A stretch of 37,447 nucleotides of DNA from Bacteroidota bacterium (GTDB lineage: Bacteria > Bacteroidota > Bacteroidia > Chitinophagales > LD1), in NCBI GenBank assembly GCA_947478005.1, contig CANJVG010000020.1, forward strand, positions 1 to 37,447, in the 5' to 3' direction. The translations under genes were made by a program, and so were the position numbers. Shown piece after piece: positions 6,380 through 22,541 of the stretch (its first letter is position 1; each line of letters begins with the position of its first letter). Under the pieces are notes generated by a model. It saw nothing but the letters and a program-made list of their open reading frames with translations, searched no databases and was not told the DNA's origin.

Positions 6380-6409
6380 TTTGGCAGATATTTTACAAGT
6401 CTATTTTTG
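6380..6409 (+). promoter_or_regulatory. Bacteroidota-type promoter (TTTG - N18 - TATTTTTG)
   Basis: TTTG at 6380-6383 and TATTTTTG at 6402-6409 match the -33 TTTG and -7 TAnnTTTG consensus of the Bacteroidota primary sigma factor, with an 18-nt spacer. The start codon is only 13 nt past the box, so the 5' leader would be just a few nucleotides. Confidence 0.6.
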
Positions 6410-6422
6410 TATGACACATTAA

Positions 6423-19449: not shown

Positions 19450-21732
19450 GTGGCAAAATCGAAATCCGTAATTGGTCGTTTTTTCAAATTCAATCCAAAT
19501 AATTTTTGGGAGGTTTTTGTTCGTGTACAAATAATTCTTTGGACCTTCATTCTATTTGTGGTCTTGTTTTTTGTTGGCGTAAACTCAGGACTGCTGGGAA
19601 AGATGCCTGACTTAGATGCTATTCAAAATCCAAACAGTGCTGTTTCTACCACTATTTATTCGGCCGATTTTGAAGTGCTTGGCTCTTATTACACCGAAAA
19701 CCGAATTGAAGTTTCATACGATGAACTGTCGCCTTATTTGGTGAAGGGTTTGGTGGCCACTGAAGACAAGCGTTTCTACGATCATAGCGGTATTGATTTG
19801 AAAGGTTTGTTCCGCGCTATTACCCTTGCATTTGTTCCGGGTCAGGATGGAGGGGGCGGCTCTACGCTTACACAACAACTGGCAAAGAATCTTTTTCACT
19901 CGGACTTTCAACATGCCGGAGTTTCGAAAAGATTATTTCAGAAAATTAAAGAGTGGGTGCTGGCGGCTAAACTTGAACGCACCTTCACGAAGGAAGAAAT
20001 CATCAATATCTATTTCAACACCGTAGGTTTTCATTACAACTCATACGGAATTAAAACGGCTGCCTTTACCTATTTCTACAAAACACCGAAAGAACTGAAA
20101 CCCGAAGAGGCCGCATTATTGGTGGCGATGTTGAATGGTCCTGCTCTCTACAATCCGCGAACCCATGTGGAGCGGGCGATGGACAGGCGAAACTTAGTGC
20201 TGCGCAGAATGACTGAATTTGCCGCCATTACCCAACATCAATGCGATTCGCTTTCTAAACTTCCCGTTAAAATCAACTTTCACAATCCCGATTATCGTGA
20301 GGGCTCGGCTACTTACATTCGCGAATACATTCGGCAGGAATTGAAAAACTGGTGTGATAAAAACAAGAAGCCCGATGGCACCAAGTGGGATGTGTATGAA
20401 GATGGACTGAAGGTATACACCACCATTGATTCGCGCATGCAGAAATATGCCGAAGCGGCAGTGGCCGAACATTTAACCGGTTTGCAGGATGCTTACTTCA
20501 AAGAGTGGAAAGGCAAAGACCCGTGGAAATTCGGTTCGCGCGCTAAACCCGATTTGCTTGACAAAATGATGAAGCAAAGCGAACGCTATCAGGATTTAAA
20601 AGCACAGGGGAAGACAGATGCTCAAATCAAAAAGATTTTCGAAACCAAGATTAAGATGGAGGTCTTTAACTGGCATGGAGATAAATCGCAGTCGGTGGAC
20701 ACGGTGATGAGTCCTTTGGATTCATTGCGTTATTATCTTCAAATAATTCAGGTTGGATTTTTGGCGGTGGATGCGAAGAGCGGTGAAGTGAAAGCATGGA
20801 TTGGCGGGCCGAACATTCGTTATTTTCAATTGGACCACGTAAAGAAAACCACCAAACGGCAGGTTGGTTCTACAATGAAGCCTTTCCTCTATGCCTTTGC
20901 GCTTGAAAGAAATTATGAGCCGTGCACGCTCATTCCATATCTGGCACCTGAGTGCCCGGGCATTGATGCCAGTTGGAATCCGGATGGCACCGATAAATGG
21001 GCAGAAGGCGCCATGGTGCCTATGAAGGATGGACTTGCTGCATCGGATAACCGAATTACTTCGCGCATTATGTGCGATATCAACGATCCGAATGGTCTGG
21101 TGCAATTTGCTCATCAATGTGAAATTGAAAGTAAGCTCGATGCAGTGCCTTCGCTTTGCCTGGGTACCTGCGATATTTCATTGTATGAAATGGTGGGAGC
21201 CTATACCTGCTTTGCCAATCTGGGTACTTACAGCAAACCGTATTTCATTAAGCGCATTGAGGATAAAGACGGCAATGTGCTGGCCGAGTTTGGCGAAGTA
21301 CATAAAGAAGCTATCCCTGAGAAAACAGCTTACACATTGACCGAAATGTTGAAGGGCGTTATTAATAAAGGAACTGCTGCTTCGCTTCGTCCCCGCTATG
21401 GATTGCAGATGCCGCTGGCGGGCAAAACCGGCACCACACAAAGCAATGCCGATGCCTGGTTCATGTGTTACAATCCCGATATAGTAATAGGTGCCTGGGT
21501 GGGTTTCGAGCAGCCGAGTGTTCACTTTGCGTCTAATCGTTCAGGTGCCGGAGCTACGGCCGCCATGCCTATTGTGGGCGCTTTTTTGCGCAAGAGTTTT
21601 AATGACCGCGCGGTGCAGTTGAAACACAATGAGTTTTCTGCCCCTGCCGATTCTTCTTCTATTTTAGGTTTGAACTGGAGTTGCACACCTGAAATGGATA
21701 CGCTAAAAAAAAACAATAGCCCCGGCCATTAG
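19450..21732 (+). CDS. Class A penicillin-binding protein 1A-like; C-terminus probably continues after a frameshift at an A9 tract
   Basis: Bifunctional peptidoglycan synthase, 760 residues as read. A GTG start and a transmembrane anchor at about 27-45 are followed by the GT51 glycosyltransferase, with E105 in VATEDKRFYDHSGID and GGGGSTLTQQLAKN. The transpeptidase has S474-T-M-K477 (VGSTMKPF), the S532-D-N triad and K659-T-G (AGKTGTTQ). The frame ends early, just after an A9 run at 21705-21713 (…DTLKKNNSPGH). In the frame one base further on, 41 more codons (21713-21835) read TIAPAISNWFLKVFAKDTNE and onward, with a TAA at 21836-21838, only 4 nt before the next gene. The tail looks genuinely coding and fills what would otherwise be a 110-nt gap. 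Cause: real slippage, mutation or sequencing error. Confidence 0.93.
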   Translation: MAKSKSVIGRFFKFNPNNFWEVFVRVQIILWTFILFVVLFFVGVNSGLLGKMPDLDAIQNPNSAVSTTIYSADFEVLGSYYTENRIEVSYDELSPYLVKGLVATEDKRFYDHSGIDLKGLFRAITLAFVPGQDGGGGSTLTQQLAKNLFHSDFQHAGVSKRLFQKIKEWVLAAKLERTFTKEEIINIYFNTVGFHYNSYGIKTAAFTYFYKTPKELKPEEAALLVAMLNGPALYNPRTHVERAMDRRNLVLRRMTEFAAITQHQCDSLSKLPVKINFHNPDYREGSATYIREYIRQELKNWCDKNKKPDGTKWDVYEDGLKVYTTIDSRMQKYAEAAVAEHLTGLQDAYFKEWKGKDPWKFGSRAKPDLLDKMMKQSERYQDLKAQGKTDAQIKKIFETKIKMEVFNWHGDKSQSVDTVMSPLDSLRYYLQIIQVGFLAVDAKSGEVKAWIGGPNIRYFQLDHVKKTTKRQVGSTMKPFLYAFALERNYEPCTLIPYLAPECPGIDASWNPDGTDKWAEGAMVPMKDGLAASDNRITSRIMCDINDPNGLVQFAHQCEIESKLDAVPSLCLGTCDISLYEMVGAYTCFANLGTYSKPYFIKRIEDKDGNVLAEFGEVHKEAIPEKTAYTLTEMLKGVINKGTAASLRPRYGLQMPLAGKTGTTQSNADAWFMCYNPDIVIGAWVGFEQPSVHFASNRSGAGATAAMPIVGAFLRKSFNDRAVQLKHNEFSAPADSSSILGLNWSCTPEMDTLKKNNSPGH

Positions 21733-21838
21733 CAATTGGTTTTTGAAAGTGTTTGCCAAAGACACCAACGAACGCCTTTCGCCAAAACAAAGACGCGAGA
21801 TAAGGAAGTATAACCGAACTCATCACCAGAAAAAATAA
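21713..21838 (+). other. Displaced 3' extension of the PBP gene (+1 frame)
   Basis: 41 open codons in the frame one base beyond the annotated one, starting in the A9 tract and ending in TAA four bases before the methyltransferase ATG. The peptide is basic (LSPKQRREIRKYNR) with an aromatic segment (NWFLKVF). It would be the natural C-terminus if the run had eight As. It has no start of its own. Confidence 0.7.
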
Positions 21839-21842
21839 GCAA

Positions 21843-22541
21843 ATGCCTTTAGGAAAAATCTACCTCATCCCTTCTTTTCTTGGCGAAGACAATGCCGCCA
21901 TTATTCCCGACCAGATAAAGACGCGGGTGCAGGAGTTGGATGAATTTATTGTGGAAGATGCGCGCACGGCCCGCAGATATTTGCGCGCTATTGGTTTCAA
22001 AAAAAATTTTGACACCGAGGTAATTATTCGTGAACTGGACAAACATGCCAAGCAACAGGATTGTCGCGCACTTCTGCAAAATGTAATGCAGGGAAAAGAT
22101 GTGGGCATTATTTCCGAAGCCGGTAACCCCTGCATTGCCGACCCGGGCAGCGAAGTGGTGGCCTTTGCCCATATCTATGATATTGAAATTGTTCCGCTGG
22201 TGGGGCCTTCGTCTATTTTGCTCGCGCTTATTGCTTCGGGTTTCAACGGTCAGCAATTTTGTTTTCATGGCTACTTGCCGATAGACAGCGCGCAACGCAT
22301 CGGTAAATTGAAAAAGCTGGAAGCTGCGGCCAACAAAGGCGCGCAGATTTTTATGGAAACGCCTTTCCGCAATCAGAAATTATTGGATGAGGTTTTGAGA
22401 ACCTGCAGCCCCGACACCAACCTGTGCATCGCCTGCGACCTTACTTTGCCCACGCAATTTATCCGCACCAAAAAGATTGCCGCCTGGAAGACTGACACGG
22501 TCGATATCAATAAGCGTTATTGCATTTTTTTGTTGGGGTAA
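21843..22541 (+). CDS. SAM-dependent methyltransferase, RsmI-like tetrapyrrole-methylase fold
   Basis: 232-residue methyltransferase of the tetrapyrrole methylase superfamily, resembling RsmI, which methylates C1402 of 16S rRNA. Visible blocks are VEDARTARRYL near 38-48, GIISEAGNPCIADPG near 88-102 (the SAM-binding turn) and VGPSSILLALIASGFNGQQF near 120-139, then FHGYLP. It is distinct in the lead-in (LIPSFLGED) from the standard RsmI (LYVVATPIGN), suggesting the paralogous Bacteroidota form. Substrate is uncertain. It lies 4 nt after the frameshifted PBP extension, so the two are probably co-transcribed. Confidence 0.87.
   Translation: MPLGKIYLIPSFLGEDNAAIIPDQIKTRVQELDEFIVEDARTARRYLRAIGFKKNFDTEVIIRELDKHAKQQDCRALLQNVMQGKDVGIISEAGNPCIADPGSEVVAFAHIYDIEIVPLVGPSSILLALIASGFNGQQFCFHGYLPIDSAQRIGKLKKLEAAANKGAQIFMETPFRNQKLLDEVLRTCSPDTNLCIACDLTLPTQFIRTKKIAAWKTDTVDINKRYCIFLLG

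Follow-up and report, generated by a model that had tools for sequence, protein, structure and literature searches.

The window (the whole 37,447-nucleotide stretch of contig CANJVG010000020.1 that was analysed) carries a penicillin-binding protein gene followed by an rsmI-like gene on the forward strand (Table 1). Pfam analysis of the first protein showed the domains Transgly (PF00912, 1.6e-54) and Transpeptidase (PF00905, 2.9e-20), both above cut-off, and by this pair of glycosyltransferase and transpeptidase domains it is a class A penicillin-binding protein of PBP1A type; its score against the NCBIfam model PBP_1a_fam (TIGR02074) was 448.9 bits, below the cut-off of 508.75. A second PBP1A paralogue is encoded in the genome of the window, possessing the C-terminus KSSGEKGNEYE and lacking the adenine tract described here, and plasmid records contained only distant penicillin-binding proteins (<60% identity). 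The rsmI-like protein (232 aa) scored 101.8 bits against a cut-off of 167.9 bits for the NCBIfam 16S rRNA 2'-O-methyltransferase and may represent a divergent subfamily. Elsewhere in the window, an imperfect tandem repeat array with 21-, 42- and 105-base units is located at positions 1688-1939.

Table 1. Features at the 3' end of the PBP1A gene (positions within the window)
Feature	Position	Strand	Remarks
PBP1A-type class A penicillin-binding protein, 0-frame short form	19450..21732	+	760 aa, C-terminal KKNNSPGH
A9 slippery tract (putative)	21705..21713	+	A9 or A10 at the matching site (11 of the 18 species in the genus)
Short 0-frame C-terminus 3' of the tract	21714..21732	+	TAG at 21730-21732
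Alternative basic tail	21716..21838	+	40 codons plus TAA (IAPAISNWFLKVFAKDTNERLSPKQRREIRKYNRTHHQKK); would be fused to PBP1A by a transcript with one A fewer or two more
rsmI-like gene, TP_methylase family	21843..22541	+	starts 4 nt past the tail stop

The run AAAAAAAAA lies inside the main frame of the PBP1A gene, which begins with GTG and ends as CTA AAA AAA AAC AAT AGC CCC GGC CAT TAG, the stop codon being six codons 3' of the tract. The frame reached with one A fewer or two more reads ...KKTIAPAISNWFLKVFAKDTNERLSPKQRREIRKYNRTHHQKK up to a TAA at 21836-21838, and the third frame (A10, one A more) gives LKKKQ and an immediate stop. The tail stop is separated from the ATG of rsmI by 4 nt, the stop of the short form by 110 nt. 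The initial annotation had placed the tract and the main-frame stop correctly to the base, and its coordinates for the open frame one base on, with the 4-nt spacing and the 110-nt gap otherwise left before the next ATG, are confirmed.

Tract and tail across the family

Orthologues were collected from all available genomes of the family, which comprises uncultured Bacteroidota of Chitinophagales type. A single scan of named contigs supplied further sequences; by their titles these contigs are all metagenome-assembled, and nearly all are labelled Bacteroidetes/Bacteroidota or Chitinophagales. After removal of duplicates, usable C-termini were available for 29 species, eighteen of which belong to the genus of the window; eleven species bear the tract and eighteen are tract-free. 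The tract occupies exactly the same site in 11 of the 18 species of the genus, as A9 in ten and as A10 in one, and no tract-bearing species outside the genus was identified among the 29 compared. In all eleven, exactly one of the frames following the tract codes for a basic tail, 38-51 residues in length with a net charge of +3 to +11; the two other frames end within 17 codons of the tract start. The initial annotation had considered that orthologues might end at the short-form site with nothing conserved downstream; comparison of the C-termini showed instead a conserved tail in the eleven species and its absence from all 18 tract-free C-termini.

The frame of the tail differs among these species. 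The window alone enters it with one A fewer, six species (L002, L003, L004, L012, L015 and L018) enter it with one A more, and in four (L008, L010, L013 and L014) it is the templated frame. These differences originate from indels in the flanks of the tract and do not involve its length. The window is 1 nt shorter at the tract region than its three sister species, and an undercalled A10 in its assembly is possible; this would leave the conclusion on slippage unaffected. On a tree of the PBP body, from which the C-terminus was left out (support of the genus node 100/99), the distribution of tract and tail requires four changes. They were gained once, at the root of the genus, and lost three times (L011; L009, L016 and L017; L005, L006 and L007), jointly in each case. 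Retention of ORF organisation and tract in non-identical homologues, a criterion described for slippage genes (PMC1088944), is seen in 11 species.

Sequencing error and recent mutation had been among the options of the initial annotation. On this view, which also takes in assembly error, the gene would be a normal longer one whose frame was broken only recently or only in the data, and a single miscalled A could account for the nucleotide by which the window is shorter than its sisters. However, an out-of-frame tail is located behind A9 in six other independently assembled species, and both non-tail frames stop early in all eleven. Because the arrangement recurs in independent genomes, is under purifying selection (see below) and is lost as tract and tail together, neither error nor recent mutation can explain it; the exact A count of the window (A9 or A10) aside, both are ruled out as its cause by the comparison of the 11 species, and the probability left to them is negligible.

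Selection on the tail was analysed for L001-L004 (the window and the three tract-bearing species nearest to it), whose tails align free of internal gaps and do not overlap rsmI. Pairwise, these tails are 69-83% identical in DNA and 63-80% identical in protein. Pooled pN/pS was 0.33 in the tail frame versus 1.05 and 1.25 in the other frames, and none of 2000 column shuffles (mean 0.86) gave a value as low as 0.33. In these four species purifying selection acts on the tail as read in its own frame, which agrees with the earlier impression that the peptide looks coding, and protein-level selection on the new-frame product is itself a criterion for slippage genes. As pN/pS is low in the tail frame only, the tail is most likely a translated peptide that is subject to selection. 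It could be argued that the tail is never made and that its sequence, as a relic or leader of rsmI, is conserved through regulation of that gene, since it occupies the space ahead of rsmI and overlaps the rsmI start in five species. This is extremely improbable given the amino-acid-level selection in the tail frame where such overlap is absent, the basic character and aromatic/hydrophobic start (NWFLKVF-like) kept across the genus, and the loss of the tail jointly with the tract.

The tail has no match in Pfam or NCBIfam, and so no known domain was identified. A profile of the tail searched against 299 genomes of the order matched the tract-bearing species of the genus, once per genome and at the end of PBP1A; two further matches (L131 and L132) were weak (E about 0.002), and no confident copy was identified elsewhere in these genomes. 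An AlphaFold model of the whole protein of L010, in which the tail is naturally in frame, reached a pLDDT of 43 with 11 sequences and was too poor for use, and helical-moment figures did not pick out a single conserved amphipathic segment in the tails. Class A penicillin-binding proteins usually possess one N-terminal membrane helix, with the C-terminus in the periplasm. As this topology would place the tail in the periplasm, a basic tail with an aromatic/hydrophobic start could tether the synthase to the membrane surface or to polyanions of the cell wall.

The A9 tract as a putative slippage site

In the 4.0-Mb genome of the window, A/T runs of exactly eight bases number 410 and those of exactly nine 82, and 4 runs have ten bases or more. 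The sharp fall at ten (G000) suggests either avoidance of longer runs or an effect of assembly. Runs of nine or more occur about once per 46 kb, yet one is found at the same site in 11 species, and the A9 at the end of PBP1A therefore exceeds chance. A run of at least nine As is unbroken in all eleven, across all three codon phases. Of 27 lysine columns that are invariant in these species, only two use AAA in every species, and identity at four-fold sites of the PBP1A gene is only 41-52% among L001-L004. On these patterns the tract is held at the nucleotide level. In a synonymous-recoding simulation of the tails, the two non-tail frames close sooner than expected (112 codons summed against 201; P 0.0015), a value that is indicative only as the species are related.

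Among runs of the genome that follow an open frame of 80 codons or more, the PBP1A tract alone combines a short 0-frame end with a coding-like alternative frame. Inspection of A/T runs with nine or more bases in this genome revealed no other slippage gene that convincingly matched this shape. L166 (G000:C107, near 6408-6418), where A9 ends a frame of approximately 470 codons, was considered as a second case and rejected, its 89-codon -1 extension not being coding-like. At five further loci (L107, L115, L116, L163 and L165; G000), A9 is located mid-frame in long open frames, the two other frames mostly closing early; should slippage be frequent, these loci are candidate sources of truncated products.

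The arrangement of two alternative C-termini in PBP1A is real, conserved and selected. The A9 tract at the 3' end of the gene is probably a conserved and functional site of transcriptional slippage that gives rise to both. RNA polymerase would stutter on A9 to produce mRNAs with varying numbers of As, and standard translation of this mixture would yield a short PBP1A ending a few codons past the tract as well as a long PBP1A bearing the basic tail. It has been described that bacterial RNA polymerase adds bases and, less often, removes them on long A runs, leading to all three frames in the mRNA (PMC1088944, PMC5574713, PMC6260861), and a tail frame that drifts behind a fixed tract would be expected where transcripts in each of the three frames occur. 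The authors of GeneTack interpreted +1/-1 cluster pairs within one transposase family as transcriptional realignment, and their reporter gave 40% frameshifting on a cassette of nine As (PMC3711429). The junction of the overlapping frames carries at least nine As, a further criterion for slippage genes (nine or more As or Ts), in the ten A9 species and the A10 species alike. Slippage yielding two C-termini, one of three options left open by the initial annotation, is supported by tract and tail in 11 species; from these we infer that the frame shifts in transcription and that the short and long forms are made in a certain ratio.

The second C-terminus could also arise in translation, by programmed ribosomal frameshifting on A_AAA_AAA as in dnaX. 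An in-frame A_AAA_AAA is present within A9 whatever the phase, in six species a -1 ribosomal shift (equivalent to one A more) reaches the frame of the tail, and in the four species with a 0-frame tail such a shift would lead to an early stop, as in Escherichia coli dnaX. That ten of the 11 species also fit -1 ribosomal frameshifting counts against slippage. The tail of the window, however, requires a +1 or -2 shift, neither of which is given by A_AAA_AAA, and a 7-base motif would be enough for frameshifting, whereas the tract of all eleven species has 9 or 10 As and occurs in each of the three codon phases. The -1 frameshifting of E. coli dnaX employs a Shine-Dalgarno-like stimulator and a hairpin (PMC3711429); PBP1A resembles it in having an A-rich slippery motif and two C-termini, but the 11 species showed neither an upstream Shine-Dalgarno-like element nor a stable downstream structure at the tract (z -1.8 to +1.1 for structures other than pseudoknots). 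Ribosomal frameshifting is therefore considered unlikely.

Homopolymers also slip in replication, and phase variation, in which changes of tract length in the DNA toggle the tail between cells or strains, would fit a frame relation that varies between species. Against this, the tract is A9 in ten of 11 species and its length hardly varies in the between-species comparison, the variation in frame stems from flank indels at constant tract length, and A9 is short for a contingency locus, making phase variation very unlikely. Because the tail frame varies (0, +1A, -1A) while the tract is fixed at 9-10 As, with no stimulator found, bidirectional transcriptional slippage is favoured over both of these explanations.

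Some observations weigh against transcriptional slippage. The tail of the window requires one A fewer (or two more), and deletion is the less favoured direction in E. coli, whose RNA polymerase prefers insertion on A runs (PMC5574713, PMC6260861). Many genes in the genome of the window hold A9 mid-frame; A9 is therefore tolerated and slippage on it perhaps modest. Conservation of the tail is confounded by overlap with the rsmI start in five species, although the selection test avoids these.

The rsmI-like gene and known slippage systems

In the six species with a non-overlapping tail and a short 0-frame form (the window, L002, L003, L004, L012 and L018), the tail stop is located 1-13 nt and the short-form stop 108-162 nt from the rsmI start. 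In most tract-free species the PBP stop lies within approximately 10 nt of it. Because only transcripts that make the tail would bring ribosomes beside the rsmI start in these six species, slippage may also set rsmI expression by translational coupling. In L008, L010, L013, L014 and L015 the tail overlaps the rsmI start in another frame (by 83-119 nt in the four measured, L008 excepted), so that one stretch of DNA encodes both the selected tail and the conserved beginning of an enzyme. Two species that have lost tract and tail also lack the close neighbourhood of PBP1A and rsmI, the latter being approximately 470 nt away in L007 and not found nearby in L011.

Transcriptional slippage on A9 in dnaX of Thermus thermophilus produces tau and gamma (PMC1088944), and split dnaX genes with A7-A10 tracts were identified by GeneTack in other bacteria, including Chlorobi (PMC3711429). 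Like these, the PBP1A gene is a chromosomal housekeeping gene with A9 and close stops in the frames that do not lead to the product, and as in the dnaX family, one gene family includes both genes with the long form in a single frame and genes split into two ORFs (PMC1088944, PMC3711429). It differs in encoding a cell-wall synthase, in its short, lineage-specific and basic tail, and in a frame relation that switches within one genus. The longer forms of mxiE (T9) and spa13 (A10) of Shigella flexneri require slippage, and the spa13 extension overlaps the next gene, spa32, whose expression is altered by slippage (PMC5009743, PMC6260861). A longer form made by slippage is likewise proposed for PBP1A, whereas mxiE and spa13 are plasmid-borne secretion-system genes with no known sequence relation to it. 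Frameshifted cell-wall (mur) genes of Buchnera are rescued by slippage on A10 (PMC5009743, PMC6260861) and share with PBP1A long A runs in cell-wall genes and mixed reading frames; in Buchnera, however, slippage mends decaying genes of an endosymbiont, while the tract, tail and early stops of PBP1A are kept across species with genomes of approximately 3-6 Mb.

The mechanism of slippage is already known; what is new, on the literature searched, is its likely occurrence in this gene and this lineage, together with a frame that drifts within a single genus. No report of slippage for a penicillin-binding protein was found in the open-access literature, and publications on slippage together with penicillin-binding proteins or Bacteroidetes contained nothing on the PBP1A gene. 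Conserved transcriptional slippage beyond mobile elements has rarely been documented in bacteria, a survey of 108 genomes having yielded a single non-mobile candidate (PMC1088944). A set of species with one gain, three joint losses and moves of frame makes slippage testable by comparison and experiment, and standard annotation would overlook a selected C-terminal form of a cell-wall enzyme.

A broader reading, which is speculative and unlikely, is that the tract acts as a frame-indifferent device for setting a ratio: 9-10 As and early stops in two frames are kept while the tail frame drifts, and the device would set the share of tailed PBP1A and, through ribosomes that end beside the rsmI start, link a cell-wall synthase to a ribosome-modifying enzyme. 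If this were true, one genus would hold every frame relation possible for a slippage gene.
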